Shown: piece by piece, positions 1,479-25,235 of the stretch
Position numbering within the stretch: position 1 is the stretch's first letter
How the letters are laid out: each line of letters starts with the position of its first letter
From: Verrucomicrobiales bacterium
Lineage (GTDB): Bacteria; Verrucomicrobiota; Verrucomicrobiia; Verrucomicrobiales; DEV007
Direction of reading: 5' to 3'
Length of the DNA stretch: 64,000 nt
Assembly (NCBI GenBank): GCA_016795505.1
Contig: JAEUHH010000102.1
Span: 1 to 64,000, forward strand
The notes under the pieces: generated by a model
Seen by the model: the letters and a program-made list of their open reading frames with translations, nothing else
Database searches by the model: none
What the model was told of the DNA's origin: nothing
Program-made: the position numbers and the translations under genes

Positions 1479-1699
1479 GGGCGCTGGGTGGCCGGGGTGG
1501 GCGAGGGGAGAGCCGATCGGCTGGCTATGGTGTCCGCGGAGCCGCGCTCCCGCAATCGGAAAAGGGGTGTGCGTTCCGGCGTTGTCATGCGACAAATGAT
1601 TGGTTGATGGAGACGAGACTCTGCGCTTGGTTCCGCCCTCCGAGTCGTCGTCTGTAACCGGTCTCGTCAACGTAAGTTTTGATCAATCCTGCCCTGCCT

Positions 1700-4600
1700 A
1701 TGTCTGATGGAGTGAACGCAACCCGCGAGCCTTTGGCGATCGTCGGGATGGCCTGCCGTTTTCCCGGTGGCGTGTCCGATCCCGCCTCGTTCTGGAAACT
1801 CCTCGTGGAACGCCGCTCGGGCATCATCCCGGTGCCGAAGGATCGCTGGAATCGCGAGCGCTGGTATCATCCGAACGCGGAGATCCCGAGCCGCATGATC
1901 ACGAAATGGGCGGCTTTCGTCCACGATTTCGACAAGTTCGACGCGCAGTTTTTCGGCATTTCGCCGCGTGAAGCACTCCGGATGGACCCGCAGCAGCGCT
2001 GGCTGCTGGAGGCGGCCTGGGAATCGCTGGAGGACGCCGGAATGCCCCCGATCGGCCTGCGGGGCTCGGACACGGGGGTTTTCATCGGCATTGCGTCGAA
2101 CGACTACGCGAATGTCGCGCAGAGTGATCCGAAGAATGTCGATGTGCACACGAACTCGGGCTCGACGCTGTCGATCGCGTCGAACCGGATTGCGTATCTC
2201 TTTGATTTCAAAGGACCGGCGGTGTCGGTCGATACGGCGTGCTCCTCGGCGCTGGTGGCGGTGAACCTGGCCTGCGAGAGCATCTGGTCGGGCCAGAGCG
2301 CGATGGCGCTGGCGGGAGGGGTGAATGCACTGCTGACGCCGGATGCGTCGATCGGATTCTCCAAGGCATCGATGCTTTCCCCGAGCGGGCAGTGCTTTGC
2401 TTTCGACGACCGGGCCAATGGCTACGTGCGCGGCGAGGGAGCGGGCGTGATCGTGATCAAGCCGCTGCGGCAGGCGATCGCGGACGGCGACCGAATTTAT
2501 TGCACCATCCGCGCGGCGGTGATCAACCAGGATGGCCACACCTCGTCGATGACGGTGCCTGGGGTCGAAACTCAGGCGGAAATGCTGCGAATCGCCTACA
2601 AACAGGCCGGGATGGAGCCGAAACGGGTGCGCTACATGGAGGCGCACGGCACGGGCACTCCCGTGGGCGACCCGATCGAGACGCGGGCGCTGGGGCAGGT
2701 GCTGGCACAGGGCCGCGACGAGGGCGACTGGTGCCTGATCGGCTCGGTGAAGACGAATATCGGCCACCTTGAGTCGGGTTCCGGCGTCGCGGGTTTGATG
2801 AAAGCCGCGCTGGTGCTGCATCACGACACGGTGCCGCCGAATCTGAATTTCAAGCGGCCCAATCCGAACATTCCCTTCGAGGAGTTCAAGCTGAAGGTCG
2901 CGACCGACCTGCAACCGCTGCCCCATTTGGGCGATTTCCTGCCGGTCACGGCGGTGAACAGCTTCGGTTTCGGCGGGACGAACGCCCACATCGTGCTGGA
3001 GGCGAATCCGAATGCCGAAGGACGCGCCACGAAGACGATCGTGACCTTCCCTGGCGGCAAGGAAGCGGATCGTCCGCTGTTGCTGCCGATCTCGGGTCGC
3101 ACCGATGGCGCGTTGCGAGACGCGGCGGTGCAGTGGCGTCATTATTTACGCGAGTCGGATGAAAAGCTGGCGGATGTCTCTGCTGCGGCGGGTCTTCACC
3201 GTGAGCATTTGGACAACCGGCTGGTGGTCATGGGCCGCGACCGGGAGGAACTTTGTCATCGGCTCACGCAATGGCTGGCGGGCCATCCGGAGGAGGGGAC
3301 GACGGTTTCCGGCAAGCCGGCTGCCGAGGTGCATCCGCTCGTTTTCGTATTCACTGGCCAAGGCGCGCAGTGGTGGAAGATGGGCCAGGAGTTGCTGGAG
3401 CGCGAGCCGGTGTTCCGCCGGACGTTGGAGGAAATCGACGCCTTCATCAAGCCGCTGGGCGGCTGGTCGCTGATCGAGGAGATGACGCGCGACGAGGCGT
3501 CGTCCCGGATGGAGCGCACGAACATCGCGCAGCCGGCCATTTTCGGCCTGCAGGTGGCTTTGGCCGAACTCTGGAAAAGCTGGGGCGTGGAACCGGCCAA
3601 GGTGGTCGGCCACTCCGTCGGCGAGGTCGCGGCGGCCTACGTGGCGGGCGCGTATTCGCTGGAGGATGCGGTGAAGGTGATTTTCCACCGCAGCCGGCTT
3701 CAGGACACTACAGGCGGTCATGGCCGCATGGTGGCGGTGGGCATTTCCACAGCGGAGGCGAAGAAGCTGCTCGCCGGCCGGGAGCATCAGATCCAGGTCG
3801 CGGTGGTGAACAGCCCCGGACTGATCACGCTGGCGGGAGACACCGCGCCGCTGGAGGAGGTCGTCGCGGGTCTGGAGACGGCGGGCAAATTTGTCCGCTG
3901 GCTGCGGATCGACTACGCCTTCCACACGCACCAGATGGAGCCGATCCGCGAGGAGTTGCTCGCGGCACTCGCCGGCATTCAGCCGCGGCCGACGCGGATT
4001 CCCTATTTCTCGACGGTGACGGGCGGACAACTCGCCGGGGAGAAGCTCGACGCCGAATACTGGTGGCGAAACGTGCGTGAGACGGTGCAGTTCGCCCCGG
4101 CGATCACGGCGCTGATCCGCGGTGGCGAGGATTCCTTCCTCGAACTCGGGCCGCACCCGGCTTTGCAGAATCCGATCCAGGAATGCCTCTCCGAGCAGGG
4201 GCGAAAGGGCGTTTATTTCAACAGCCTGAAGCGCAAGAGCGACGAGTCGCTGGAGATGCTGACGAATCTGGCGCAGATGCACCTGCGCGGCTATGCGATC
4301 GACTGGCAGTCGGTGAATCGCGGCTCGGGCGCATGGATCGATCTGCCGAAAAACGCCTGGCAGCGCGAGCGCTTCTGGTTGGAGTCCACCGAGGGCCACT
4401 ACCTGCGCTGCGGCGACGAGGAGCATCCGCTGCTCGGCCTGCGCCGCACGGCGTCGCGGCCGACGTTCCGTTTCGAACTCGATCCGAGGCTCTTCACCTG
4501 GCTGGACGACCACCGTTTCTGGGACAGCGTCGTTTTCCCCGCCGCCGGCTACGGCGAGATCGGGATCGCCTTGGCCCGCAAGTTGTTCCCCGGCGAGCCC

Positions 4601-7600
4601 TACGTGGTCGAGGAACTGGAGATGAAGAAGGCGCTCTTCGTCACCGAGTCGAAAGTGCCGACGGTGGAGGTCGTTTTCGATCCCGACACCCGGATTTTCC
4701 AGATTTTCAGCGCCACCGGCGACCGCAAGGAGTGGGATTTGAATGCCCAGGGCGTGTTGCGCAAGCAGCCTTTCCCCAAGGCCGCGGCACCCGTCAATTT
4801 CGAGTCCATCAAAGCAGGCCTGACCGATCATTTCGACCACGCGGGCTACTATCAGGACTACGCCGACGCCGGCTATCAGTTCCGGCCGATGTTCCAGCAT
4901 CTGCAGAATGTGTGGCGGAAAAAGGGCGAGTCCTTCGCCGAGATCGTCGCGCCCGAGGGGCTGCACCAGTCGATCCCGCATTTCCATTTCCATCCCGCCG
5001 TGCTGGATGCGTGTTTCCACACCGTCAAGGGCGGTCAGGTGCCGCCGGATGGCGCCAAGGGCACGGATTATTTCTATCTGCCGGCCGCGATTCGCAGCAT
5101 CCGTCTTTTCGTCGACAAGCCACCGCATCGCCTGTGGGGCCATGCCCGGGTGAACGACGACAACGACCGCGAATACATCATCGCCGACATCGATGTCTAT
5201 GACGACGCCGGTCGCCCCGTGGCGCAGATTCTTGGCTTCCGGGCCGACCGGGTGGAGCAAAACGACGGCGACGACCTCGAAAAATGCCTCTACCAGGCCC
5301 GCTGGGAGATTTCCCGGCTGAAAGGCACGCGCATCGACGGCACCGCGCAACTCGCGGCTCCGGCGGAGATCGTGACGGCCGCCGGCGAGGCGGTCGGGGC
5401 GCTCTACGAGCAGCGCCAACTGAACGAGCATTACGAGAAATTCATGCCGCTGATCGATCAGGCGTCGCGGCAATTCATTCTCAACGCCTACCTCGACCTC
5501 GGCTGGCATCCGGCTGTGGGCGATCTGGTGGAGGTCGCCTCGCACATGCGGCGGCTGAACATCGCGAATCACCACCGCAAGCTGGTCTTCGGACAGTTGA
5601 CCGCGCTGGCCGAGGGCGGCTGGCTGAAATCGGTGGGCGAGGAAACCTGGGAGGTGATTCGTCAGCCCGAGCGCGCCGATGCGATCGCCCTGCTCGACCA
5701 ACTGGCGGTGGAATTGCCGCGCTTCGCGTCCGAAGTCGATTTGCAGCGCCACACCGGGCCCAATCTGGCCGGCATCCTCAGCGGCGAGATCGATCCACTG
5801 GAGGTGCTCTTCCCCGGCGGTTCGTCGGAGATGATGGAGACCTTCTACCGTGAGGGAGCTGACTTCCCGGTGATCAATCCGCTGATCGGCGTGGCCCTGC
5901 GCAAAGCGATCGAAAAACTGCCGCCGCGCCGCGCCATCCGCGTGTTGGAGGTCGGGGCCGGCACCGGCTCGCTGACCAAGGAGATCCTGCCCGTTTTTCC
6001 GGCCGACCGGACGGAGTATCTGTTCACCGACAACGGCCCGTTGTTCCTGCAATCGGCCAAGGACAAGTTCGGCGAACCCTATCCCTTCGTCGAGTATACC
6101 CTGTTTGATTGCGAACGAGACCCTGTTGATCAGGGGATCGAACCCTGTTCCTTCGACATCGTGCTGGCGTCGAACGTCATTCACGCCACCGCCGACCTGA
6201 AGCAGACGCTCGCCAAGCTCGCCCGCTGCCTCGCGCCGGACGGGTTGTTGATGATGCTCGAAGTCACGTGGCGTCGGGCGCCGCTGGACAATGTCTTCGG
6301 CCTGTTGTCGGGCTGGTGGCGCTTCACCGATACCGATCTGCGGCAGCGCAGCGCCCTGTTGTCTCGTTCGGCTTGGGAAAAGCTGCTCGGCGACGCCGGC
6401 TATCGCGAAGCGACGAGTTTCATCAGTTCCCCGAAGCCGGAGGAGGACCAGCAGGCGTGCTTCATTGCCATCGCACCGCAGTCCGGAGTCGAAACGCCGG
6501 CGGAAACGGCTGAGGCTCCCGCGGCACCCGCCGAAACGCTGCTGGTGATCGGCGGCGATGAAAAACTGAAGGCGGGACTTGGCGAGTTGGGCTTGGCTCC
6601 GGCTGCCGTCGGCGCGGATTTGGATGAGATCGGCCAAAAGCTCGATGCGATTGATGCCGCGGGCGGAAAAGTCACGACCATCGTACACGCGCTGTCGCTG
6701 GATCATCCCGCGATCGACGGTCTCGACGCCGAGGCGCTCAACGCGGCTCAGGAAACCGGGGTGCGCCATGCCCACGGCCTGTTCAAGCTGATCACTGGCC
6801 GGGAATGGCCGAAGACCCGCCCGAAATTGTTTTTCCTCACGCGCGGCGCGCTGCCGGCGACGGCGGGTGATCCGCTTTCCGGGCTGGCGTCGTCGCCGCT
6901 GACCGGCTTCCTCCGCGTGGCGAACAACGAGAAGGCCGAGTTTCAATGGAACCTGATCGATCTCGACCCTACCGGTCCGGAGCATGAGATGCGCGACATT
7001 TGCGACGAGATCCGCCTGTCCGACGGCGAGCCAGAGGTGGCCTATCGAGGTCATCACCGTCATGTCCGCCGGGTGCGGCGGGTGAAGCGCGACGAACTGC
7101 CGATGCGTCGCCGCAACGCGGTGCGGCCCGACGGCTCCGTGCTGCCCTACCGCCTGCAAATCGACAAGCCGGGCATTCTCACCAACCTCAGCCTCAACGA
7201 AACCGAACGCCGCGAGCCCGGTCCGGACGAGGTCGAGCTGATCGTGAAGGCCGGCGGCATCAATTTCCGCGACGTGATGAAGGCGCTGGGGATGTATCCC
7301 GGCCAGCCGGTGGACCTGAAATGGTTCGGCGACGATTTCTCCGGCGTGGTCGAGCGTGTCGGCTCGAACGTGACCGACTTGAAGCCCGGCGACTCGGTCG
7401 TCGGCATGGCGCCGTATTGCTTCCGCAGCCATGTCACCGTGCACCGCCGGCTGGTTTTCCGCAAAGCCGACCGCATTTCCCACGCCGAGGCCGCCACGCT
7501 GCCGACGGTCTTCCTGACCGCGCACTATGCGATCAACGAACTCGCCCGGATGCGGAAGGGCGAGAGCATTCTCATTCATGCCGGCACCGGCGGTGTCGGA

Positions 7601-10600
7601 CAGGCGGCGATCCAGATCGCGCGCCATCTCGGACTGACCATTTTCGCCACCGCGGGCAGCGACGAAAAGCGCGCCCTGCTCCGCGACATGGGCGTGGATC
7701 ACGTGCTCGACTCTCGCTCGCTGGCCTTTGCCGACCGCATCATGGAAATCACCGGCGGCCGCGGGGTCGATGCGGTGCTGAACTCGCTGGCGGGCGATTT
7801 CATTCCGAAGAATTTCAGCGTGCTCGCGATGTTCGGCCGCTATCTGGAGATCGGAAAGGTCGACGTCTATGGAAACAGCCGGATCGGGCTGGAGCCGCTG
7901 CGGAACAACATCAGCTTCCACGTCATCGACCTGGCCCAGCATTTGCAGGCGAAGCCGGAGTACGTCGCCGAGATGTTCACCGAACTGGAGCGGCATTTCC
8001 AGGCGGGCGATTACCGGCCGCTGCCAAACAAGGTGTTTCCCATCACCCAGGTGGTGGAGGCGTTCCGCTACATGGCGGCGGGCAAACACATCGGGAAAAA
8101 CGTGCTCGACTTCGACGTGCCGGAGATCCTGGTCGGACCCGCCACGGAGGACGGTCACCGGCTCTCGGCCGAGGGCACCTGGCTCATCACGGGCGGCGCG
8201 GGCGGCTTTGGCCTCGAACTGGCCGGCTGGATGGCGCAAAACGGTGCGCGTCACTTCGCGCTGATGAGCCGCTCGGGCCCGAAGGAGGACGCTCTGCCAA
8301 AGATTCAGGCCCTGCGCGAGCTGGGCTGCACCGTGCTCGACGCGCGCGGCGACGTGGCGAAGCGGGCCGATGTGGATCGCGTCGTGGCCGAGATCCAGGC
8401 CGGTGGAGCGCCGCTGACCGGCGTGATTCACGGCGCCATGGTGCTGGACGACGAATTCATCGTCGAACTCGACCGCGAGCGCTTCGACCGGGTGCTGCTG
8501 CCCAAGATGCTGGGCGCGTGGAATCTCCACCAGGCCACGCTCGGTCTGCCGTTGGAGCATTTCATCTCGTTCTCGTCGTTCTCGGCCGTGATCGGCGCGG
8601 TGAAGCAGTCGAATTACAATGCGGGGAACGTCTTCCTCGACCAGTTGGCTTACTACCGTCGTTCGCAGGGCCTTCCGGCGCTGACGTTCAACTGGGGCGC
8701 GTTGAAAGGCGCGGGCTTTGTCGAGCGGAACGAAAAGACGCAGCAGTATCTCGAAATGGTTGGCCTCGGCGCGACCGAAATGGACGAAACGCTGGCTTTG
8801 TTCAGTTGGGGGCAGCCCACCGATGCCACCCAACTCGGGGCGGCACGGGTCGATTGGTCGGCGCTGGCCCGTTTCAGCCCGTCGGTCGGCAGCACGAAGA
8901 TGTTCGCTGCCGTGGTACCCCGCACCGGTGGTAGCGGAGGCGAATCGATGGCCGCCCGCATTCTCGAAGCACCCGCCGACAAGCGCATGGCGATGGTGGA
9001 GGATCTCATCGCCGCGCAGGTCGGAGCCGTGCTCGGCACCGAGGCCTCGCGCATCGACAAGGACACGCCGCTGACGAATCTGGGCCTCGATTCGCTGATG
9101 GCGATCGAACTGGTCAACCGGATCGAGGACAAACTCGGCATGGCCATGCCCATGGGCTCGGTGCTCAACGGACCGAACATCCGCGACCTGTCGATCCCCG
9201 TGTTGGAAAAACTTCTCGACTCCGCCGGCGACCTGTCGGGCGGTGGGGCGACTTCGACGGACCTGGTGCCGTTTGAGGCGACCGGTGAAATGCCGTCCGT
9301 GCTGCCCCTTTCGGAAGGACAACGCGCCCTGTGGTTCCTCAACCGCCTCGCGCCCGAGTCCTCGGCCTACAACCTGATCTTCTCCGGCAAGTTCCGCCCG
9401 CTGCTCGACATTGAGGCGATGAAGAAGGCCTTCGCGCTGCTGTTCGAACGGCATCCGCTTTTCGACGTGACCTTTACCACGCGCGATGGCGAGCCGGTTC
9501 AGATCGTGCAGAAGGGACGCACCATCGACTTCCGCGAGCACGACTGTTCGTCGCTGAACGACGTGCAGTTGAAGGCGCTGATCAGCGATCACGCGAACCG
9601 ACCCTTCGACCTCGAGCGCGGTCCGGTGGCGCGGCTGGAACTGTTCCGCACCGCCGACGCGGCCCACGTCGCGCTGCTGTCGATGCATCACATTGTCTCC
9701 GACGCTTGGTCGGTGGCGGTGCTGATCCAGGACCTGATCGAGTACTACTTCTCCGCCAAAGCCGGACGCACCCCGCGGGTCGAGCCGCTGCCGGCGAGCT
9801 ACGCCGACTTCGTCCGCTGGGAGCGTGCCCACCTCGACAGTCCAGCGGGCGACACCCGCCTCGCGTATTGGTCACATCGTCTGGCCGATGCGCCCGTGGC
9901 TCTCGACCTGCCGACCGACCGACCCCGTCCGCCGGTGCAGAGTTTCAATGGCGGCACCCACGGCTTTCAGATCGACGAGGCCCTCACCGGAGAGATTGTG
10001 GCTTTCTCCAAAGCCCATCACGCCACTCTGTTTACCACGCTGCTGTCCGCCTACGAGATCCTGCTGCATCGCTACTGCCGCCAGGACGATCTGGTCGTCG
10101 GCGTGCCGCTGGCGGGCCGGAATCAATCCGAACTGCAGGGCGTGGTCGGCTATTTCATCAATCCCGTGCCCATGCGCAGCCGGGTCGACGACGATCCGAC
10201 CGTGGCGGCTTATCTGGAACGTAACCGCGAGGAGGTCAATGGCGCGCTGGAACACCAGCAGTTCCCGCTGGCTCGGCTGGTGGACAAGCTCCGCGTCCCG
10301 CGCGACCCCGGCCGCTCGCCGTTGTTCCAGGTCACGTTCTCGATGGAGCGCATCCCCGGCATCGACGAGCAGGGGATCGCGGTGTTCCTCATCGGCCAGG
10401 GCGGCCATACCTTCCATGTTGGCGACTTGTCGATGGAGACGGTCGATTTGACGACGCGGCAGGCGCAGTTCGAGATCACGCTGGTGGTCGAGGAGGCCGG
10501 AGGCAACCTGTTCGGCTGCTGGCAGTACAACCGCGATCTGTTTGACGAAAACACCATCGCCGAACTCAATGCCCTCTACGCCCAGGTCCTGCGCGGCATG

Positions 10601-13600
10601 GTGGCGAATCCCGAGGCGCGGATTTCCGAGATCGAACTGCTCTCGACCGATGAGCAGCGCAAGGTCCTGACTGAGTGGAACGCCACCGCAGCCGAGTTTC
10701 CGCGCGAGACACTGCTCCACGAGTGGGTCGCGGAAAGCGCCGCCCGCCATGCGGACAAAACCGCGGTTGTCTGCGGCGATCGCGAACTCGGCTATGGCGA
10801 ACTGAATCGCCTCGCCAACGGCGTGGCCAAGCGCCTCACCGCCCTCGGCGTGCAGCCCGGCGACAATGTCGGCGTGCTCATCGACCGGTCGCCTGCGATG
10901 GTTGCCGCGCTGCTGGGCGCCCTGAAATCTGGAGCCACCTACGTACCGCTTGATCCCGAGTTCCCCGAGCAGCGTCTGGCTTTGATGTTGTCCGATGCTA
11001 CCCCGAAGGTACTGCTCACTTCCCGTGAACTGGCCGGCGAACTGCCCGGCGGCGCTTGGCAGGTCCTCGCGATGGAAGATGTCGAGCCCTCCGCCGACCC
11101 GCCCGCCGTGTCGGGACTGACGCCCGAGTCGCTCGCCTACATCATTTACACCTCCGGATCGACCGGCACGCCCAAGGGCGTCGAGATTCCGCACCGCGCG
11201 GCGGTCAATTTCCTCGCCTCCATGCGCCGCGAACCGGGACTTTCGGAAAGTGACCGCCTCCTGGCCGTCACCACGTTGTCCTTCGACATTTCGTTGCTGG
11301 AAATGTTCCTGCCGCTCGTCACCGGCGCCACTGTGGTCATCGCCACGCGGGAGGAAGTGAAGGACGGTCGCCGTCTGGCCAATCTGCTCAACGACGAGGA
11401 CATCACTGTCATGCAGGCGACACCCGCGACCTGGCAGATGCTGCTCGATTCCGGCTGGGAAGGCCGCAGCGAGTTGCGCCTATTCTGCGGTGGGGAGCCC
11501 CTGTCGCGTTCGCTCGCCAACGTGCTCGTCAATTCCGCCAGCGAGGTCTGGAATCTCTACGGGCCGACTGAAACGACCGTCTGGTCGACCCTCCAGCGCG
11601 TCACCGAAAGCGACGAAGCCGTCACCATCGGCCGACCAATCGCCAACACCCAGGTTTACGTGCTCGATGCCGCCCACCGGCCCGTGCCGGCTGGCTTCAC
11701 CGGCGAACTGTGGATCGGAGGCGCCGGTCTGGCCCGCGGCTACCGCAACCGGCCCGAACTGACCGCCGATGCCTTCGAGGAGATCACGCTGCCCACCGGG
11801 GAGACGAGCCGGCTTTACCGCACCGGCGACCTTGCCCGCTGGACCCGTGACGGCGTGCTCGAGTGTCTCGGCCGCGTCGATTTCCAGGTCAAAGTCCGCG
11901 GGGTCCGCATCGAACTCGGCGACATCGAGGCCCAGCTCGAGCAGCATCCCGCCATCAGTCAGGCCGTCGTCGCCAAGCGCGCCGATCTGCCCGGTGGCGA
12001 GGGACTCGCAGCCTACCTTATTCCCACGGGCGAGAGCCTGCCGGACGCCACCGCTTTGCGCCAGTATCTGGCCGAAAAACTGCCCGCCAGCTACATTCCG
12101 GCCGCCTTTGTTCAAGTCAGCGAATTCCCGCTCACGCCCAATCGCAAGATCGACCGCAAGCGGCTGCCCGCGCCGACTCTGGCCAGCAGTCCGGCCGGCG
12201 AGCGGGTTGCTCCGCGCACGCCCACCGAGCAGAAGCTGCACGGCATTTTCGCCCATCACTTCGATCCCGCCAGCTTCGGCATCACCGACGGCTTCTTCGA
12301 ACTCGGCGGCGATTCCCTGCTCGCCCTGCGCATCGTGGTGGAGACCTCCGAGGCCTTCAATCGCCAGGTGCCGGTCGATGCCTTCCTCCGCCATCCTACG
12401 ATCGAGCAACTGGCTCACTACCTCGACAGCTCGGAAAGCGGCGTCGCTCCCGACGAGGAGGCGCTCGTCTCCGGACCCGTGGCGTCGATCGACGATCTCG
12501 ACCACATCGAAGTTGCCTTCGCCGGCGGGGACGAGGAGGTGCCCGCGCTCGATGCCGTGGCCCTGACCTACGTGCCCGAGGCGCTCGCCGCGCTGGCCGG
12601 CGTGCCGCGCGATCGCATCGCCGAGCACTGGTTCGGCGGCAGACCCCGCCTGACCAATGTGTATGAACTGCCCCAGGGCCGCATCGGCGTGGTCATGCTC
12701 CCGCGTTTCGAAATCGATTTCTACAAGGACCCCGAGGGCGTCCGCGGACCCGTCATCGAGGCCCTCGAACTGGCCGCCAAAGCCGGCGCTCGGACCGTTT
12801 CGCTGACGGGCGTCATTCCTTCCGCCACCAATCACGGGCGCGACATCGCCGGCTGGATCGACGGACGGAAGGATCTGCCGGTCATCACCACCGGCGACGC
12901 CACCCGCTCGGCCACCATCGTGCGCAGCGTGGAGGGAATGCTGGAGAAAGTCGGTCGCGACCTGGCGAGGGAGACTCTGGCCGTCGTTGGCCTCGGCTCC
13001 ATCGGCCACGGCACCATGCTGCTGCTGCTGAAAGTGCTGCCGCATCCGAAGCGACTGATTCTGTGCGATCCCTATCAGAATGACGACCAACTGGCCCGCG
13101 CCCGCGACGAAGTCCGCGCGGCCGGCTACACAGGCGAGGTCAACATCGTCGCCAACGGTGGCGCCCTGCCGCCCGAGGTCTATGACGCCAGTTTCATCGT
13201 CGCTTCGACGAACCTGCCCGGCATCCTCGACATCCGCGGATTGAAACCCGGCACCCTGGTGGTCGATTATAGCTTCCCGCCCGTGTTCCGCGTGGCCGAT
13301 GCCATCCGGCGCGTCCGGGAGAGCGGCGACATCCTGTTCACCACCGGCGGTGAGCTGAAATTGCCCGGCGTCGTGAAGGAGACGGTTCATGTCCCCGAGA
13401 ACGTCGATTCACTCGGCGAGGGTCAGGAGGATGGCTTTGTCCGCTTCCTCGGCAGCCGCGATCCCGAGGAGATCACCGGGTGCGTGCTCGTCAGCCTGCT
13501 GACCGGCCAAAAGCCCGGCATCCAGCCCACTCTCGGGCCGCTCTCGATCGAGGACGCGCTGGCCCACTATAACTATCTGACCGAACTCGGCATTCAGCCC

Positions 13601-13684
13601 GCCCGCCTGCAAATGAGCGGTTGGTTCGTCCCGGAGGAGACCATCGTCGCCGTCCGCGAATCGAAGGTTTACGAAGGAACCTGA
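1700..13684 (+). CDS. Iterative-type hybrid PKS-NRPS (KS-AT-DH-cMT-ER-KR-ACP-C-A-PCP) with terminal acyl-ACP-reductase-like domain
   Basis: The product is about 3,994 residues from ATG 1700; a TTG at 1679 would add seven. Domains by position: KS 1730-3010 (Cys codon 2240 in DTACSS, His at 2645 and 2765); AT 3330-4220 (Ser in GHSVGE at 3614); DH 4400-5270 (HxxxDxxxxP at 4511, Asp at 5006); C-methyltransferase about 5800-6480 (LEVGAGTG); structural KR 6530-7090; ER 7160-8120 (HAGTGGVGQ); KR 8170-8750 (TGGAGGFG, VLDD, SNYNAGN); ACP 8990-9220 (LGLDSL); C 9290-10640 (HHIVSDAWS); A 10690-12160 (YTSGSTGTPKG, NLYGPTE, YRTGD); PCP 12215-12430 (LGGDSL). The last 390 residues resemble acyl-ACP reductase (ITTGDATRSATIVRSVE, VVGLGSIGHG). 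One fully reducing, methylating PKS module feeding one NRPS module matches fungal HR-PKS-NRPS enzymes and suggests iterative chain building, amino acid capping and reductive release. No phosphopantetheinyl transferase is visible in the window. Domain order is confident; product and iteration are inference. Confidence 0.93.
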   Translation: MSDGVNATREPLAIVGMACRFPGGVSDPASFWKLLVERRSGIIPVPKDRWNRERWYHPNAEIPSRMITKWAAFVHDFDKFDAQFFGISPREALRMDPQQRWLLEAAWESLEDAGMPPIGLRGSDTGVFIGIASNDYANVAQSDPKNVDVHTNSGSTLSIASNRIAYLFDFKGPAVSVDTACSSALVAVNLACESIWSGQSAMALAGGVNALLTPDASIGFSKASMLSPSGQCFAFDDRANGYVRGEGAGVIVIKPLRQAIADGDRIYCTIRAAVINQDGHTSSMTVPGVETQAEMLRIAYKQAGMEPKRVRYMEAHGTGTPVGDPIETRALGQVLAQGRDEGDWCLIGSVKTNIGHLESGSGVAGLMKAALVLHHDTVPPNLNFKRPNPNIPFEEFKLKVATDLQPLPHLGDFLPVTAVNSFGFGGTNAHIVLEANPNAEGRATKTIVTFPGGKEADRPLLLPISGRTDGALRDAAVQWRHYLRESDEKLADVSAAAGLHREHLDNRLVVMGRDREELCHRLTQWLAGHPEEGTTVSGKPAAEVHPLVFVFTGQGAQWWKMGQELLEREPVFRRTLEEIDAFIKPLGGWSLIEEMTRDEASSRMERTNIAQPAIFGLQVALAELWKSWGVEPAKVVGHSVGEVAAAYVAGAYSLEDAVKVIFHRSRLQDTTGGHGRMVAVGISTAEAKKLLAGREHQIQVAVVNSPGLITLAGDTAPLEEVVAGLETAGKFVRWLRIDYAFHTHQMEPIREELLAALAGIQPRPTRIPYFSTVTGGQLAGEKLDAEYWWRNVRETVQFAPAITALIRGGEDSFLELGPHPALQNPIQECLSEQGRKGVYFNSLKRKSDESLEMLTNLAQMHLRGYAIDWQSVNRGSGAWIDLPKNAWQRERFWLESTEGHYLRCGDEEHPLLGLRRTASRPTFRFELDPRLFTWLDDHRFWDSVVFPAAGYGEIGIALARKLFPGEPYVVEELEMKKALFVTESKVPTVEVVFDPDTRIFQIFSATGDRKEWDLNAQGVLRKQPFPKAAAPVNFESIKAGLTDHFDHAGYYQDYADAGYQFRPMFQHLQNVWRKKGESFAEIVAPEGLHQSIPHFHFHPAVLDACFHTVKGGQVPPDGAKGTDYFYLPAAIRSIRLFVDKPPHRLWGHARVNDDNDREYIIADIDVYDDAGRPVAQILGFRADRVEQNDGDDLEKCLYQARWEISRLKGTRIDGTAQLAAPAEIVTAAGEAVGALYEQRQLNEHYEKFMPLIDQASRQFILNAYLDLGWHPAVGDLVEVASHMRRLNIANHHRKLVFGQLTALAEGGWLKSVGEETWEVIRQPERADAIALLDQLAVELPRFASEVDLQRHTGPNLAGILSGEIDPLEVLFPGGSSEMMETFYREGADFPVINPLIGVALRKAIEKLPPRRAIRVLEVGAGTGSLTKEILPVFPADRTEYLFTDNGPLFLQSAKDKFGEPYPFVEYTLFDCERDPVDQGIEPCSFDIVLASNVIHATADLKQTLAKLARCLAPDGLLMMLEVTWRRAPLDNVFGLLSGWWRFTDTDLRQRSALLSRSAWEKLLGDAGYREATSFISSPKPEEDQQACFIAIAPQSGVETPAETAEAPAAPAETLLVIGGDEKLKAGLGELGLAPAAVGADLDEIGQKLDAIDAAGGKVTTIVHALSLDHPAIDGLDAEALNAAQETGVRHAHGLFKLITGREWPKTRPKLFFLTRGALPATAGDPLSGLASSPLTGFLRVANNEKAEFQWNLIDLDPTGPEHEMRDICDEIRLSDGEPEVAYRGHHRHVRRVRRVKRDELPMRRRNAVRPDGSVLPYRLQIDKPGILTNLSLNETERREPGPDEVELIVKAGGINFRDVMKALGMYPGQPVDLKWFGDDFSGVVERVGSNVTDLKPGDSVVGMAPYCFRSHVTVHRRLVFRKADRISHAEAATLPTVFLTAHYAINELARMRKGESILIHAGTGGVGQAAIQIARHLGLTIFATAGSDEKRALLRDMGVDHVLDSRSLAFADRIMEITGGRGVDAVLNSLAGDFIPKNFSVLAMFGRYLEIGKVDVYGNSRIGLEPLRNNISFHVIDLAQHLQAKPEYVAEMFTELERHFQAGDYRPLPNKVFPITQVVEAFRYMAAGKHIGKNVLDFDVPEILVGPATEDGHRLSAEGTWLITGGAGGFGLELAGWMAQNGARHFALMSRSGPKEDALPKIQALRELGCTVLDARGDVAKRADVDRVVAEIQAGGAPLTGVIHGAMVLDDEFIVELDRERFDRVLLPKMLGAWNLHQATLGLPLEHFISFSSFSAVIGAVKQSNYNAGNVFLDQLAYYRRSQGLPALTFNWGALKGAGFVERNEKTQQYLEMVGLGATEMDETLALFSWGQPTDATQLGAARVDWSALARFSPSVGSTKMFAAVVPRTGGSGGESMAARILEAPADKRMAMVEDLIAAQVGAVLGTEASRIDKDTPLTNLGLDSLMAIELVNRIEDKLGMAMPMGSVLNGPNIRDLSIPVLEKLLDSAGDLSGGGATSTDLVPFEATGEMPSVLPLSEGQRALWFLNRLAPESSAYNLIFSGKFRPLLDIEAMKKAFALLFERHPLFDVTFTTRDGEPVQIVQKGRTIDFREHDCSSLNDVQLKALISDHANRPFDLERGPVARLELFRTADAAHVALLSMHHIVSDAWSVAVLIQDLIEYYFSAKAGRTPRVEPLPASYADFVRWERAHLDSPAGDTRLAYWSHRLADAPVALDLPTDRPRPPVQSFNGGTHGFQIDEALTGEIVAFSKAHHATLFTTLLSAYEILLHRYCRQDDLVVGVPLAGRNQSELQGVVGYFINPVPMRSRVDDDPTVAAYLERNREEVNGALEHQQFPLARLVDKLRVPRDPGRSPLFQVTFSMERIPGIDEQGIAVFLIGQGGHTFHVGDLSMETVDLTTRQAQFEITLVVEEAGGNLFGCWQYNRDLFDENTIAELNALYAQVLRGMVANPEARISEIELLSTDEQRKVLTEWNATAAEFPRETLLHEWVAESAARHADKTAVVCGDRELGYGELNRLANGVAKRLTALGVQPGDNVGVLIDRSPAMVAALLGALKSGATYVPLDPEFPEQRLALMLSDATPKVLLTSRELAGELPGGAWQVLAMEDVEPSADPPAVSGLTPESLAYIIYTSGSTGTPKGVEIPHRAAVNFLASMRREPGLSESDRLLAVTTLSFDISLLEMFLPLVTGATVVIATREEVKDGRRLANLLNDEDITVMQATPATWQMLLDSGWEGRSELRLFCGGEPLSRSLANVLVNSASEVWNLYGPTETTVWSTLQRVTESDEAVTIGRPIANTQVYVLDAAHRPVPAGFTGELWIGGAGLARGYRNRPELTADAFEEITLPTGETSRLYRTGDLARWTRDGVLECLGRVDFQVKVRGVRIELGDIEAQLEQHPAISQAVVAKRADLPGGEGLAAYLIPTGESLPDATALRQYLAEKLPASYIPAAFVQVSEFPLTPNRKIDRKRLPAPTLASSPAGERVAPRTPTEQKLHGIFAHHFDPASFGITDGFFELGGDSLLALRIVVETSEAFNRQVPVDAFLRHPTIEQLAHYLDSSESGVAPDEEALVSGPVASIDDLDHIEVAFAGGDEEVPALDAVALTYVPEALAALAGVPRDRIAEHWFGGRPRLTNVYELPQGRIGVVMLPRFEIDFYKDPEGVRGPVIEALELAAKAGARTVSLTGVIPSATNHGRDIAGWIDGRKDLPVITTGDATRSATIVRSVEGMLEKVGRDLARETLAVVGLGSIGHGTMLLLLKVLPHPKRLILCDPYQNDDQLARARDEVRAAGYTGEVNIVANGGALPPEVYDASFIVASTNLPGILDIRGLKPGTLVVDYSFPPVFRVADAIRRVRESGDILFTTGGELKLPGVVKETVHVPENVDSLGEGQEDGFVRFLGSRDPEEITGCVLVSLLTGQKPGIQPTLGPLSIEDALAHYNYLTELGIQPARLQMSGWFVPEETIVAVRESKVYEGT
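6069..6157. repeat. 22-bp-phased ACCCTGT array, locus 2 (direct, inside the PKS-NRPS gene)
   Basis: Cores ACCCTGT start at 6098, 6120 and 6142, and a weaker ACCCTAT starts at 6076, all in the same direction and exactly 22 bp apart. The third and fourth units carry GATC flanks. The array lies in the methyltransferase-domain coding region, where the protein still reads like a normal PKS methyltransferase (SFDIVLASNVIHAT follows). Because 22 is not a multiple of three, each unit is read in a different frame. Confidence 0.65.
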
Positions 13685-20021: not shown

Positions 20022-20885
20022 TCACCGACGAGCCAGCACGAACGTCTGCAAGCCGGTGGCATCGTGGCTGAATGTCACGTTCGACCAATGCATCTCTGAG
20101 AAGATGGCGCGCACTTCGTCGACATTGCGGTAGTGGGTGTCAAGTTCGAAGGCCCGGAGCAAATAGTCGCTGCCCTCTTCGCGGTTGGTGGCGCTAGTGA
20201 AAAAAACGCCACCCGGTCGTAGAACGTCAAACACGCAGCGGTAAAATACCCGCAACTGGATGTCGTCGAGGAATTCGCCGAGACCGGTGCTGACCACGAT
20301 GTCCTGCGGTGGTTCGGGATAATCGGATTTGTTGAGCGCGTCGCCACGTCGAAACTCGGCGCGGGCGAGCATCCCGGGCATCTCGGTAGCGAGATGCACC
20401 CGGGCGGCGTCCAATACGACTGGATCAATGTCCATGCCAACGTAACGGAGCGCCGCTACGTCGCCACTGAGGCGGGAAATGTCCCTGGGAATTCCACAAG
20501 GTATGGCGAGTACGCTGACCGTTTCCTCATGACCCACGATGTCGAGCGCCTTGCGGATGACGCGCTCCGATTCCACGGCACGTTGCCGCATTCCTTGTGC
20601 GGCTCGAGTATTGAGCAGCACGCGGTCAAGAATTGCGCCGATGAGGCAACGACCCGAGGCGCGGTTCCTGTAAAGGTGGTCAGCGAAGCGATAACTGCCG
20701 CTGTGATCGATGGCTTCGCGGGCGAGATCGCTCAATCGCATGAGCCAATAGATGGGAATGAGGTGCCACCGACCGTCGCGGCGGAATTTGGCGACGAGAT
20801 TGCCGGTGCGGCGTGTCAGATTGTGCGGCCGAAAGTCAGCCACCGACCCGGCCGAGGCCGGGGAGTTCGTTAATGCGGTGTTCAT
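20022..20885 (-). CDS. Class I SAM-dependent methyltransferase (last gene of carrier-protein cluster)
   Basis: The product is 287 residues from the ATG at 20885, or 293 from 20903. The SAM-binding region is recognisable around VLAIPCGIPRDIS (motif I), YVGMDIDPVVLDAA (motif II with the acidic residue), DIVVSTGLGEFLDD (motif IV) and VFDVLRPGGVFFTSA (post-motif region). The usual E/DxGxGxG of motif I is replaced by IPCGIPRD, as in a divergent class I subgroup. The gene overlaps the end of the upstream diiron gene by about 50 bases, so translation is probably coupled. By context it should methylate the cluster product or a carrier-bound intermediate; the acceptor cannot be read from sequence. Confidence 0.8.
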   Translation of the reverse strand: MNTALTNSPASAGSVADFRPHNLTRRTGNLVAKFRRDGRWHLIPIYWLMRLSDLAREAIDHSGSYRFADHLYRNRASGRCLIGAILDRVLLNTRAAQGMRQRAVESERVIRKALDIVGHEETVSVLAIPCGIPRDISRLSGDVAALRYVGMDIDPVVLDAARVHLATEMPGMLARAEFRRGDALNKSDYPEPPQDIVVSTGLGEFLDDIQLRVFYRCVFDVLRPGGVFFTSATNREEGSDYLLRAFELDTHYRNVDEVRAIFSEMHWSNVTFSHDATGLQTFVLARR

Positions 20886-21393
20886 AAGGTTGGATTTCGT
20901 CAAAAACTTGCTGGTCGATAATACGGAAACGTTTTAGGCAGGCGGCGGCTCCAGGCCGGCCGCGGAGCCAGCCCGCCACCCATCCGAGATGGTCTCTTTC
21001 ATCATCAATCATGCGGGCCAGCGCTTCCCGAACGGGTTCGGGCTGGTCGGCTTCGTTTAACTCATCCTGGAACCGTTGATGCACGCGCCGCTCGAAAATT
21101 TGAGTGAAGCACAACACTTCGAGCAACGAAGCCGGTGGTCCGCTATGACTCAGGAAAAAACTCTGATAGCTGCGATGAATGCGTATATGGGGCATGCCGC
21201 AGCGATGGATGGCGTCGGCCCAGAGGCGGGCATGCTCGGCCTCCTCGGCGGCATGGCGGGTAAGTCGTCTGCAAAGTTCTCCGTCCTCCGCCAGTCCGGC
21301 CATGCGGCCCAGCAGTAGGGCTCCTTCTAGTTCACTTTGGCGATACCAGTTCAGCCGCCAGGCGAGATTGTCTTTCGTGTTCATGACTTTCAC
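20836..21393 (-). CDS. Ferritin-like diiron protein 2 of the carrier-protein cluster
   Basis: The product is 185 residues from a GTG at 21393 whose bases overlap the upstream TGA, or 182 from an ATG at 21384. The sequence is helical and shows a complete four-helix diiron pattern: Glu23 in SELEGALL, E51-x-x-H54 in EEAEHARLW, Glu101 in QIFERRVHQRF, and E132-x-x-H135 in DDERDHLGW. This resembles MiaE- and rubrerythrin-related ferritin-like enzymes that activate O2. Its place between another diiron-like protein and a methyltransferase suggests oxygenation of a carrier-bound or released intermediate. The substrate is unknown; an iron-storage role is unlikely in this operon. Confidence 0.75.
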   Translation of the reverse strand: MKVMNTKDNLAWRLNWYRQSELEGALLLGRMAGLAEDGELCRRLTRHAAEEAEHARLWADAIHRCGMPHIRIHRSYQSFFLSHSGPPASLLEVLCFTQIFERRVHQRFQDELNEADQPEPVREALARMIDDERDHLGWVAGWLRGRPGAAACLKRFRIIDQQVFDEIQPYEHRINELPGLGRVGG

Positions 21394-22106
21394 GCGGCTT
21401 GGATGTCGGCGAGCCTGCTGGACATTTTTCTGCCGGTCAGTCGCTCGATCTTACGGTTGATGGCCAGGATGGCGGCAAAATCGTTTTTCTGAGCCACTGG
21501 TGTGGTGGGCAGGACCAACTCGCCGATGTGCTGGAAATGGATCGCTTCATCGAGCACATCGTCGATCTCCTCGGGATGGTGCGCCAAGCGCAGCGCGAGC
21601 AGATCGCATCCGAACTGGCAGTGCCGCACCTCATCCTTCGCGACGAGATGCAGGATGTGGGCGAGCACCGGGTCCAGCGCCTGTTTTGCGTCCTTAAAGA
21701 AGTGATGGGCGGCGAAGTGTTCGCTCATAAGATACCGCGTCAACAGACGGGCAGGATGGTCAAAGTGCAGGCCAGTCTGGCGGCGGCGGATGGCCACGAC
21801 TTCCTCATCCCGAATCGGCCGGTAATCCACAGCGGCGAGATACTGGGCAAAAACGTGAAAATGCTTGTAGCTCTCGTATAGCTGGACGCTGAAGATGGCG
21901 GTGCTTGTGACACAATCCCACATCAGGTCCAGCACGCGGGGAGTGAAGATGGGAAAAAAGGACTCGATCAACGCCGAGTCTCGGACGCGGTCCAGCAAGT
22001 CGGGCTGTGAGAGTGAGAGTCCGGGCTGGATGTCGTCCCAAGCGATGTCGGTGTCGAGAATCCAGCGGGTCATCTCTGATGTGGTCAGGTAATCTCCGTA
22101 GTTCAT
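21390..22106 (-). CDS. Ferritin-like/AurF-like diiron protein 1 of the carrier-protein cluster
   Basis: The product is 238 residues, all-helical by composition. Candidate metal ligands are Glu78 and His82 in LYESYKHFHVF, Glu129 and His134 in SEHFAAHHFF, and E159-x-x-H162 in AKDEVRHCQFGCDLL. The last motif is the clearest and is typical of diiron oxygenases such as AurF-type N-oxygenases and ferritin-like proteins. The start ATG at 22106 overlaps the carrier-protein stop as ATGA. Next to an amino acid:carrier-protein ligase, a reasonable guess is oxidation of a carrier-bound aminoacyl group, for example at nitrogen or carbon. The assignment to a named family is tentative. Confidence 0.6.
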   Translation of the reverse strand: MNYGDYLTTSEMTRWILDTDIAWDDIQPGLSLSQPDLLDRVRDSALIESFFPIFTPRVLDLMWDCVTSTAIFSVQLYESYKHFHVFAQYLAAVDYRPIRDEEVVAIRRRQTGLHFDHPARLLTRYLMSEHFAAHHFFKDAKQALDPVLAHILHLVAKDEVRHCQFGCDLLALRLAHHPEEIDDVLDEAIHFQHIGELVLPTTPVAQKNDFAAILAINRKIERLTGRKMSSRLADIQAA

Positions 22107-22345
22107 TGTGTCGTCACGGTGGTGATTTTTTGGGCGATGACGCCGGTCAGGGTGTCGAGCGTCATGGTGGGTGAAAATTCAGATTCGGCGATGCGCACTC
22201 CGAACTCCTCATGGATCGCACAGAGCAGTTCCACCGTGTCCATGCTGTCTAGGCCGAGTTCGTGTAGGGGAGTTTCTGCGCGAAATTGAGGCGCGAGGCG
22301 CGGCAGACAATGCCGCAGGTGGTCGAGTATTTCTTTGGTGTTCAT
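22103..22345 (-). CDS. Acyl/aminoacyl carrier protein 2
   Basis: The product is 80 residues with the carrier-protein fold signature: an N-terminal helix, then LHELGLDSMDTVELLCAI, where the Ser of DSM is the phosphopantetheine site. It starts with an ATGA overlap on the ligase gene immediately upstream. That adjacency makes it the most likely acceptor of the amino acid activated by the ligase. It needs a phosphopantetheinyl transferase, and none is visible in the window. Confidence 0.9.
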   Translation of the reverse strand: MNTKEILDHLRHCLPRLAPQFRAETPLHELGLDSMDTVELLCAIHEEFGVRIAESEFSPTMTLDTLTGVIAQKITTVTTQ

Positions 22346-23061
22346 CTCAGTGAAGATGCGGTAACCCAGCGTTCCAGCCCGAATGCCACGCAGGCACTGT
22401 GGGCGGGCTTCCCATCGGTCAGGGATATTTGAAAGCGCCCCCCGAAAAAATCGCGGTGGCGGTTGATGCTCGCGATCGACAGCCCATCGGCCAGTGTGAA
22501 CTCAATCTTTGTCTTCAGCAGGCGCTGCAGCGCTGCCTTGGCACGCGACTTCGTTTGGGGTAGGAAGAAGGGATCAGTCGCCTCCTCCCACCCACCTTCG
22601 ATGCCGAGTTCGCGTGCCAGTCGCCCGATATCGTCCCGCATCGTGCCAAGTCTGCGGTCGATCCACTGTGGAGCGCCAATGAAGATCAGTTCACGCATCT
22701 GAAATTCAATCTGTCGGCGGCCTGGCATTAGCGTGGCGGGATCTTCGCGTCGGAAGCAACGCCCTCGGGCGGCCAAGACTATCCCGCCTTCCGGGTCCGT
22801 CAGCGTATGCCGATGTAGCGAAGCGTAAGCATGATAGCAGACCGCGGGGGATAGATCGTAGTCCGTGGCGGCGAGATGTTCGACCGGCCATCCCGGTCGC
22901 TCGTTGGCTGCTGCCGTCATGAGGAGATGGGGGAATGATTCATAGTAACCGGCCAGCCGCAGGGTGGTCCGCGGAATCAGCGCTGGCCAATCTTTCTCTT
23001 CGGCTTCAAGGCCCAGTGACCAGTCACGCAATCGGGCATCAATGGTTTCAATGGGATTCAT
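22342..23061 (-). CDS. Amino acid:[carrier protein] ligase (atypical seryl-tRNA-synthetase-like, class II aaRS fold)
   Basis: The product is 239 residues with a class II aaRS catalytic core and no tRNA-binding domain. Motif 2 is GRCFRREDP (residues 100-108) and motif 3 is ACVAFGLERW (223-232). Cys75, Glu124 and Cys224 are spaced like the three zinc ligands of methanogen-type SerRS and of the characterised Bradyrhizobium amino acid:carrier-protein ligases. Those enzymes activate a small amino acid such as glycine or alanine and load it onto the phosphopantetheine of a stand-alone carrier protein. The gene lies between two carrier-protein genes with 4-bp overlaps on each side, which supports this role strongly. 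Amino acid identity cannot be read here. Confidence 0.85.
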   Translation of the reverse strand: MNPIETIDARLRDWSLGLEAEEKDWPALIPRTTLRLAGYYESFPHLLMTAAANERPGWPVEHLAATDYDLSPAVCYHAYASLHRHTLTDPEGGIVLAARGRCFRREDPATLMPGRRQIEFQMRELIFIGAPQWIDRRLGTMRDDIGRLARELGIEGGWEEATDPFFLPQTKSRAKAALQRLLKTKIEFTLADGLSIASINRHRDFFGGRFQISLTDGKPAHSACVAFGLERWVTASSLR

Positions 23062-23324
23062 GTGAACGCGTCTAAAATGGTGGAAATGCTATGGAAGTGT
23101 TTCATGTTGACCAGATGATCAGGAACCGGCATGCCAGTGTGCTCCTCGATCGTGCCGATCAGGTGTAGGATGGCGAGGCTGTCAACGATGCCGTGCTCGA
23201 AAAGTGGCGTGTCGCTTGTAACCGCCGAGTAGACTCGCGATGGACGCAGCGCGGGAAGCACTTCATTCACGAGACGAAGCAGGGCGCTTTCAAGCTCGGG
23301 CGTGGATGTGTCGGTGGAGGACAT
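23058..23324 (-). CDS. Acyl carrier protein 1
   Basis: The product is 88 residues from the ATG at 23324; an ATG at 23336 is an alternative. The recognisable core is LFEHGIVDSLAILHLIGTIEE, with the phosphopantetheine Ser in VDSL, followed by VPDHLVNMKHFHSISTILDAF. The open frame extends much further upstream, but that part is the out-of-frame reading of the SDR gene. The start overlaps the SDR 3' end by about 35 bases, and the stop overlaps the ligase start as ATGA. The divergent sequence relative to carrier protein 2 suggests a different partner, possibly the KAS III-like protein or the reductase. Confidence 0.85.
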   Translation of the reverse strand: MSSTDTSTPELESALLRLVNEVLPALRPSRVYSAVTSDTPLFEHGIVDSLAILHLIGTIEEHTGMPVPDHLVNMKHFHSISTILDAFT

Positions 23325-24249
23325 AGCGGGTGACATGTGAAACAAGTGTGCGCCAGTCAGAGTGCGCAGGTTCGCAAATGGCGTCTGCGCCCGCCGTGTC
23401 ATAGATGCGGGGGAATGACAGGGCTGGGAGAAAGTACTTCGCGTCGGAGAGTACGCGCTGGAACAACAGATCTCCGCTCTGCGCCACCGTCTCCCCGAAC
23501 AGGGCGAACGTCTTTCCATCCACCAGCTCCGGAGGCATGATCGAGCCACGCCGCCACGTGGCGGACAGGCCCGCGAACTCCCCTGCCAGGTGTGCGAGGA
23601 GCTCCCCCAAGGCAGGAGCACGGAGCCCCGCGCACGCGTGCAGAACCGGTGGGACATCTCGTGCCAGAGCTGCCGCTACGATCAGCCGCCCTGCATGTTC
23701 GGTTGAAATCAGATCGACTTTCGCCTCTGCGCTGCCCGGTATCATGGGGACCAGGCCCTTCCACAGCCAAAACAGCAGGTGATGAAGCGCGCCCGGCCGA
23801 AGCACACGCCCGTCTGTCTCGCCCCCGGCCGCCGTCGAGAGTCTTACGATCGTAGACGGCAACCTGCTCCTGGCGACCAAATCCTCGGCTTCCCATTTAC
23901 TACGTTCGTAATCATTCACGAATCTCGATGGTCGGGGCAATGGGGCCTCGTGGATCAGACCGGAGGCTGCGCCGCAAACGCAGGCTGTGCTGATATGCAC
24001 GAAACGCCGCAGCCGTGGACAAGCCTCCGCGAAATCGAGCAATTTTTTCGTCAACAACACGTTTGCCGAATGCAATTCCTCCCACGGCGCGCGAAACGCG
24101 GTCAATGCCGCGCAGTGAATGATGATCTCGCAGTCCTTCGCTGCTACGGGATCGTCGCCGCGAGCTAGTTCCACCACCCGATATCCGCGCAACTGCCGGG
24201 CGACTTCGCTTCCGATGTTGCCTGTTACTCCGGTCAGCAAAATGGTCAT
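23290..24249 (-). CDS. Thioester-reductase-like NAD(P)-dependent SDR (epimerase/NAD_binding_4 type)
   Basis: The product is 319 residues from the ATG at 24249, which overlaps the KAS III-like stop as ATGA; a longer frame to 24291 adds unconserved residues. The N-terminus is an extended-SDR Rossmann motif (ILLTGVTGNIGSEVARQL), followed by VHISTACVCG and the catalytic YERSK (YxxxK). The layout resembles stand-alone versions of the terminal reductase domains of NRPS and carboxylic acid reductases. In this cluster it could release a carrier-bound acyl or aminoacyl chain as aldehyde or alcohol. A plain sugar-epimerase-like dehydrogenase is the alternative. Confidence 0.8.
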   Translation of the reverse strand: MTILLTGVTGNIGSEVARQLRGYRVVELARGDDPVAAKDCEIIIHCAALTAFRAPWEELHSANVLLTKKLLDFAEACPRLRRFVHISTACVCGAASGLIHEAPLPRPSRFVNDYERSKWEAEDLVARSRLPSTIVRLSTAAGGETDGRVLRPGALHHLLFWLWKGLVPMIPGSAEAKVDLISTEHAGRLIVAAALARDVPPVLHACAGLRAPALGELLAHLAGEFAGLSATWRRGSIMPPELVDGKTFALFGETVAQSGDLLFQRVLSDAKYFLPALSFPRIYDTAGADAICEPAHSDWRTLVSHVTRYVLHRHIHARA

Positions 24250-25235
24250 GATAGCACGAGGTCGGTGGTTTCCAACAGCATCGCGGACCAACTCGATCCG
24301 AATCCGTAAGCAAAGAGTAGTACCCTCATACCCGGCCGTAGGATTCCCGCAGCGAAAGCTTGCTCGAGGTACAGAAAGCTGTCCGCCGATATCGTGTGTC
24401 CGAATCGCACCGTGGGCGCGAACAAGCGATCCTCGGCAATGGAGCAGAGGCGCATCAGGATAGGCCAGGACAGTGCGTTCACTCCCGTGGGAATTACCAG
24501 GTCGACATCCCTCGGACGACAGCCCGACTGACTGAGTGTTTGCCGAATCGTTGCTGCGGCGGTGGGGAAATATGCCGCTACGATCTCACTCTGGCGGTTC
24601 GGCACATCCCAATACCAGCCTTTTGATACTTGATGCTGGCCCAGCCAACGATAGCGGGCATTTTCACGAGAGACGACCACCGCGCTAGCGGCGTCGCTGA
24701 TCACATTGTAGAGCACCTCGCGACCCGCGCCCGGAGGAAATGCATCAGCGCCCACGCAGAGTATGTGATTCAGCGCGGGCTCGGCTAGGAGCAGCGCTCG
24801 GGCCTGCCGCAGCGCCGCGAACATGCCCGCGCAGCCCTGCTGCGCTATTCCGCAGACGAAGGCCCTTTCAAGTCCCAATTCCTCCTGAGCCCAACTCCCT
24901 CGGTAGCAAAACTGACTGAGCAATGGATCGGCTTCTGGGTGGGTGCTGGCCCGGCCATGCCCGTCAGGCAGAGATCCTGCCCAGAACAGCGCGTCTATAT
25001 CGTCCGCCCGGAGCCCGGCTTCCGCGATCACCGCCCCCGCTGCCTTCACGGCGAGTGCGGAAACGTCATCACAAATCCAGGCGCCATCGAATCCGAAAGC
25101 AGTTAGATTCTCTGCGGGGGACAGATTACGCAGTTCGCTGAGAGGAACGTAACGATCAGGCAGCAATGATCGATGCGCGCGAAGGCCAATCGAGGATATG
25201 AGTTTGCCGGAGCCGACATTATTCATGACGGCCAT
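24246..25235 (-). CDS. KAS III-like (FabH-fold) enzyme with altered catalytic triad
   Basis: The product is 329 residues with a thiolase-fold N-terminal half and a C-terminal FabH-type end (MRVLLFAYGFGSSWSAMLLE). The nucleophile is Cys135 in QQGCAG. The His of the family PHQAN motif is Thr250 (IPTGVNALS) and the Asn of GNT is His280 (FGHTISADS). Loss of the standard Cys-His-Asn triad argues against ordinary decarboxylative condensation and for acyl transfer, as seen in some KAS III-like acyltransferases, or an unusual condensation. It is the first gene of the minus-strand cluster. A second in-frame ATG lies at 25226. Confidence 0.8.
   Translation of the reverse strand: MAVMNNVGSGKLISSIGLRAHRSLLPDRYVPLSELRNLSPAENLTAFGFDGAWICDDVSALAVKAAGAVIAEAGLRADDIDALFWAGSLPDGHGRASTHPEADPLLSQFCYRGSWAQEELGLERAFVCGIAQQGCAGMFAALRQARALLLAEPALNHILCVGADAFPPGAGREVLYNVISDAASAVVVSRENARYRWLGQHQVSKGWYWDVPNRQSEIVAAYFPTAAATIRQTLSQSGCRPRDVDLVIPTGVNALSWPILMRLCSIAEDRLFAPTVRFGHTISADSFLYLEQAFAAGILRPGMRVLLFAYGFGSSWSAMLLETTDLVLS

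Follow-up and report, generated by a model that had tools for sequence, protein, structure and literature searches.

The PKS-NRPS gene in the 64,000-nucleotide stretch of Verrucomicrobiales DNA that we analysed (hereafter the window) very probably ends in a release domain belonging to the TAD/AAR superfamily, in which a conserved cysteine would carry the acyl chain next to a bound NAD(H), whatever product is then released. AAR stands for acyl-ACP reductase; TAD, as used in the PDB titles of structures from the carmabin pathway, we take to mean terminal amidation domain.

The gene (1679..13684, + strand) is a single open frame of 4,001 amino acids counted from a TTG codon, with the first ATG at 1700, and its product matches 24 Pfam families at E ≤ 0.01. 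Pfam and fold comparisons together give the order KS-AT-DH-MT-ER-KR-ACP-C-A-PCP-TAD, with all domains on the + strand: ketosynthase (1727..2851; PF00109/PF02801), acyltransferase (3341..4294; PF00698), dehydratase (4424..5263; PF21089/PF14765), a methyltransferase whose position suggests the C-methyl type (5897..6406; PF08242/PF13489), enoylreductase (7220..8107; PF08240/PF00107/PF13602), ketoreductase (8174..8707; PF08659), ACP (9005..9193; PF00550), condensation domain (9299..10666; PF00668), adenylation domain (10730..12148; PF00501/PF13193), PCP (12263..12424; PF00550), with the phosphopantetheine serine in GGDSL near 12314, and the terminal AAR-fold, TAD-like domain of 374 amino acids (12560..13681), recognized by sequence, profile and predicted structure. 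Fungal PKS-NRPSs share the order KS-AT-DH-MT-ER-KR-ACP-C-A-PCP followed by a release domain, which in some of them is Dieckmann-cyclising, and the Pfam matches of the window protein follow this fungal-type highly reducing arrangement. The open frame of 2,228 codons that runs antisense to the gene (3146-9832, - strand) is most likely a shadow frame of the coding DNA. The genome also holds two phosphopantetheinyl-transferase-type genes.

The adenylation code in the window is DILQFGLV. A full code could be read in 43 of 49 family loci, as DILQFGLV in 31, DILQLGLV in 10, and DIMQFGLV and DILQLGMV in one each; among the remaining loci, two gave a partial code, two a match without coverage of the code and two no match. 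The code is conserved and its substrate is probably glycine, given that we take codes of the DILQLGLI type to specify glycine and regard DILQFGLV as glycine-like. A literature search for the code returned no papers.

At E ≤ 0.01, Pfam found neither a thioesterase nor the SDR reductase family PF07993 on the protein; within the last 500 residues the carrier domain was the sole Pfam match, and the last 374 residues matched no Pfam family. The initial annotation had proposed an AAR-like end in place of a thioesterase or SDR reductase, and the profile search and structure prediction that it suggested bear this out while placing the carmabin TAD nearer still. As a single sequence, the domain matched the carmabin TAD over its full length (E = 4e-73) and PigE weakly (E = 1e-7, last 374 residues), and its match to the AAR model TIGR04058 (E = 0.0065, 15.8 bits) fell short of the curated cut-off of 449.7. 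A profile built from 16 relatives matched the carmabin TAD at E = 1.5e-108, PigE (4ppm) at E = 6e-10 and AAR chains at E = 5e-6. An alignment was made of 13 verrucomicrobial copies, and a structure was predicted for the window domain (pLDDT 86.6, pTM 0.89). Its top fold matches by Foldseek and VIA-align were five PDB structures (9E4S, 9E4U, 9E4X, 9E50 and 9E56) that bear the title “TAD from Carmabin Biosynthetic Pathway”, with Z of 45.9-47.5, rmsd of 1.9-2.5 Å and 36-38% identity (369 residues aligned at Z 47, 1.9 Å and 37%). AAR entries ranked second (Z 26.1-26.8, 3.5-3.7 Å, 19-20% identity over about 310 residues), and unrelated Rossmann proteins followed at Z 13.6 or less. The predicted model thus supports an AAR-like fold for the terminal domain, with a likeness above chance. 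In the domain tree, the window-type domains stand apart from AAR plus PigE with 99/99 support, on very long branches that the program flagged as unsure.

Both motifs named in the initial annotation lie where it had put them: the ITTGDATRSATIVRSVE segment, which contains TTGDAT, at 12884..12934 (+ strand; position computed from the translation), and the GxGxxG dinucleotide loop VVGLGSIGHG at 12983..13012 (+). The nucleophilic cysteine, which that annotation had left unplaced, is predicted to be the acyl-carrying Cys308 (EITGCVLVSLL; 13481..13483, +), aligned with AAR Cys294, a position fixed by the AAR C294S chain (6jzz). Residues were counted over 49 other family loci, one per genome, avoiding duplicate rows (L002/L078 and L004/L087). 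Cys308 is kept in 49/49, hence in 50 copies with the window, and also in the AAR, PigE, TAD, Pantoea and two Streptomyces rows of the tree alignment. Gly144 and Gly149 are likewise kept in 49/49 loci, and the middle glycine of GxGxxG is lost in five. Asp170, which follows the second strand (13067..13069, +, from alignments) and is a determinant of the NADH type, is invariant in the 49 loci, and the carmabin TAD has an aspartate at the same place; the loop and Asp170 together point to an NAD(H) site like that of the TAD. The acyl group of AAR is borne by C294, with the NADPH C4 3.14 Å from the stearoyl C1, and NADPH specificity is ascribed to R189, R193 and R314 (PMC7089970). No matching arginine is present in the alignment of the window domain. 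Because these arginines are missing, Asp170 is invariant and the same aspartate occurs in a TAD crystallised with NADH and NAD, we predict NADH over NADPH as the cofactor.

Two further positions separate the verrucomicrobial copies from their relatives. Asp113, directly after TTG (12896-12898, +), is asparagine in AAR and PigE and histidine in the carmabin TAD, and among the 49 verrucomicrobial loci it is Asp in 43, Asn in four and Glu in two. Tyr237 (VDYSFP; 13268..13270, +, from alignments), which is aspartate in the carmabin TAD, is tyrosine in 49/49. Judged by their neighbourhood in AAR, both would lie near the predicted active site. The His113/Asp237 pair occurs in 4/4 non-verrucomicrobial TAD-like rows (carmabin TAD, Pantoea and both Streptomyces), without being established as defining the TAD, and is absent from 50/50 verrucomicrobial copies.

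The carmabin TAD is like the window domain in its whole fold, in its nucleophilic cysteine, in its dinucleotide site, where an Asp follows strand 2, in a helix absent from AAR (about residues 245-254 in window-domain numbering), and in its place at the C-terminus of an assembly-line protein directly after the last PCP. It differs at positions 113 and 237 and in its host protein, the verrucomicrobial enzyme being a one-module highly reducing PKS-NRPS. NAD and NADH appear in the titles of the carmabin TAD entries, as does a Cys2238-dephospho-CoA disulfide (9E56); a search of a limited literature collection found no paper on these structures. The VatR and HcaD domains of the vatiamide and hectoramide lines also follow the last PCP, in lines that lack a thioesterase and yield amides; they are described as terminal-amidation domains (PMC10949194), and we set them alongside as putative TAD homologues. 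AAR itself (6JZQ/U/Y/Z) shares the fold, the TTG segment, GxGxxG and the cysteine, but is a free-standing, NADPH-dependent enzyme with ADO as its partner. The thioester-reductase domains of PigE and TamH are AAR-type Cys domains in natural-product pathways as well, fused to aminotransferases and more distant from the window domain; they are believed to convert thioesters into aldehydes (PMC8341465; PMC9594044). The initial annotation had also proposed a new release mode. That claim is not supported, since the same type of domain, already crystallised with NAD and NADH, ends the cyanobacterial NRPS line of carmabin and is described for vatiamide and hectoramide. The novelty lies in the occurrence in Verrucomicrobia, in the changes at residues 113 and 237 and in the linked sulfotransferase described below.

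Within the family of the window organism, the domain was found in 50/74 genomes, 34/41 good genomes and 11/18 genera. Many of the copies belong to frames of about 4,000 residues, and others to shorter ones that are often close to the end of a contig. The domain set of the window PKS-NRPS recurs in a distant member of the family (G017). A second, short match in one genome (G021:C15:144233-144376, - strand; E = 1e-10) covers 48 positions at the C-terminus of the domain, lies on a different contig from the main copy and looks like a remnant. A search of 387 genomes of the phylum gave 16 matches, with a strong match in the window’s own genome alone; the other 15, short matches of about 50-75 positions around residues 186-262 with E near 1e-4, were not counted, since we regard them as Rossmann proteins of the FolD-like or another kind. 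Outside Verrucomicrobia, relatives were found on three plasmid records. The Streptomyces fungicidicus plasmid (L006) encodes a PKS-NRPS with a TAD-like C-terminal end after A-PCP, which differs in its 36% identity, its two A domains and its lack of a DH, MT or ER match. Plasmid pCN101 of Pantoea stewartii encodes a free-standing TAD-like protein (L005:14836-16125), which shares 43% identity with the carmabin TAD across 94% of the latter, in an NRPS cluster between a luciferase-like monooxygenase gene and NRPS genes. The Streptomyces sp. NBC_00470 plasmid carries a distant, free-standing TAD/PigE-like gene (L007:9773-10966), annotated as hypothetical, near ACP and ketosynthase genes.

No gene flanking the window PKS-NRPS recurs broadly among the flanks compared. 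Across five genera, ten genomes have a PF13469 sulfotransferase gene beside the PKS-NRPS gene, in one case as a contig-end fragment. In seven (G017, G464, G466, G463, G019, G032 and G011) a sulfotransferase of about 370 amino acids follows in the same orientation, no more than about 80 bp after the end of the domain match, as at G017:C48:64928-66040, G019:C95:17439-18551 and G011:C77:2720-3826, downstream of the PKS-NRPS; in the others it is the contig-end fragment (G460), 1.5 kb away (G016) or divergent upstream (G018). Strong sulfotransferase hits (E ≤ 1e-40) occurred in 48/50 TAD-positive vs 2/24 TAD-negative family genomes by hand tally, with Fisher p of 2e-14 by genome and 4e-4 by genus, values confounded by ancestry. 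The window’s own genome has an unlinked copy (G000:C67:6184-7266), which is likely, though weakly so, to be orthologous to the linked genes, because linked copies straddle a weak root in the sulfotransferase tree. SDR homologues are found near the PKS-NRPS in G017 and G019, and the window SDR is weakly similar (83 bits). Elsewhere in the window, a small biosynthetic-looking cluster (20022-25235, - strand) contains genes for a methyltransferase, a weak class II tRNA-synthetase-like protein, an ACP-like protein, an NAD_binding_4 reductase/epimerase and a KAS III-like protein; the last served as the single-gene control for co-occurrence but, being unmatched at full length across the 73 remaining genomes of the family, was uninformative in that role.

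In the mechanism that we propose, an iterative-type highly reducing PKS, whose iteration we infer, and one NRPS module would build an acyl-aminoacyl chain, probably an acyl-glycyl one, held on the PCP as a thioester. The chain would then pass to Cys308, giving an acyl-enzyme next to NAD(H) in the Rossmann domain, from which it would be released. The likeliest last step is hydride transfer from NADH to give an aldehyde, with a second reduction to an alcohol perhaps following, although we hold this at even chances. We lean slightly towards reduction because the His/Asp pair is missing and the NAD(H) site is kept; the aldehyde is unproven, since the carmabin, vatiamide and hectoramide lines with such domains make primary amides, and the amides of these nearest relatives of known product were counted against a reductive step. 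Also on the opposing side, a search of the whole genome of the window organism found no ADO (TIGR04059) and no separate AAR, and hence no downstream partner of the AAR type. By analogy, then, the relatives divide, with the nearest suggesting an amide and those further off an aldehyde. Amide release, in which ammonia would attack the Cys308 acyl-enzyme or the PCP thioester to yield a primary amide of the N-acyl-glycinamide type, the outcome presumed for carmabin, vatiamide and hectoramide, is a substantial possibility that we nonetheless rate below even. NAD(H) would then be structural, or be used in a redox-neutral aldehyde-hemiaminal-amide route. The closest solved relative comes from the carmabin pathway, and carmabin A carries an amide at its C-terminus (PMC6164609). 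Amide ends are also described for hectoramide and for vatiamides E and F, and terminal amidation is the role given to the domains that follow the PCP in their lines, by a mechanism unstudied as of 2024 for which ammonolysis was proposed (PMC10949194). Set against this is the loss, in every verrucomicrobial copy, of the pair kept by the TAD, Pantoea and two Streptomyces rows. Ring closure in the manner of fungal R* Dieckmann domains, or hydrolysis, appears very unlikely: the fungal domain order would fit it, but there is no SDR family match, and such chemistry would need neither the conserved cysteine nor the NAD(H) site.

Release by reduction could also go as far as an alcohol. A four-electron reduction would give an N-acyl-glycinol (an N-acylethanolamine), and the linked sulfotransferase, which suggests that the product is sulfated, could then act on its hydroxyl. 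The adjoining gene and its co-occurrence with the TAD speak for this outcome, which we nevertheless consider improbable: the co-occurrence is confounded by genome completeness as well as ancestry, the hydroxyl could sit on the polyketide chain, AAR takes its reduction no further than the aldehyde, and the sulfotransferase hit in genus g2 clusters with an lpxB-type gene in 7/10 loci (Pfam-identified in one) and may be another enzyme. More doubtful still is the complete scheme of a one-protein lipid factory carried by the family as a whole, in which an iterative PKS would make a methyl-branched chain, the NRPS module would add glycine, NADH-dependent release by a TAD variant with an altered active site would give an N-acyl-glycinal or -glycinol, and sulfation by the linked sulfotransferase would produce an N-acyl-aminoethyl sulfate; if true, that product would be a shape-mimic of N-acyl taurines.

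These findings extend release domains of the AAR fold beyond cyanobacteria, to a PKS-NRPS that is encoded by a single gene and widely retained within one family of Verrucomicrobia. The natural contrast between His/Asp and Asp/Tyr at positions 113 and 237 offers a handle on how the TAD ends a chain and on whether it uses NAD(H). Should the verrucomicrobial domains prove reductive, the TAD family would embrace two chemistries, amide-forming and reductive, set by two residues.
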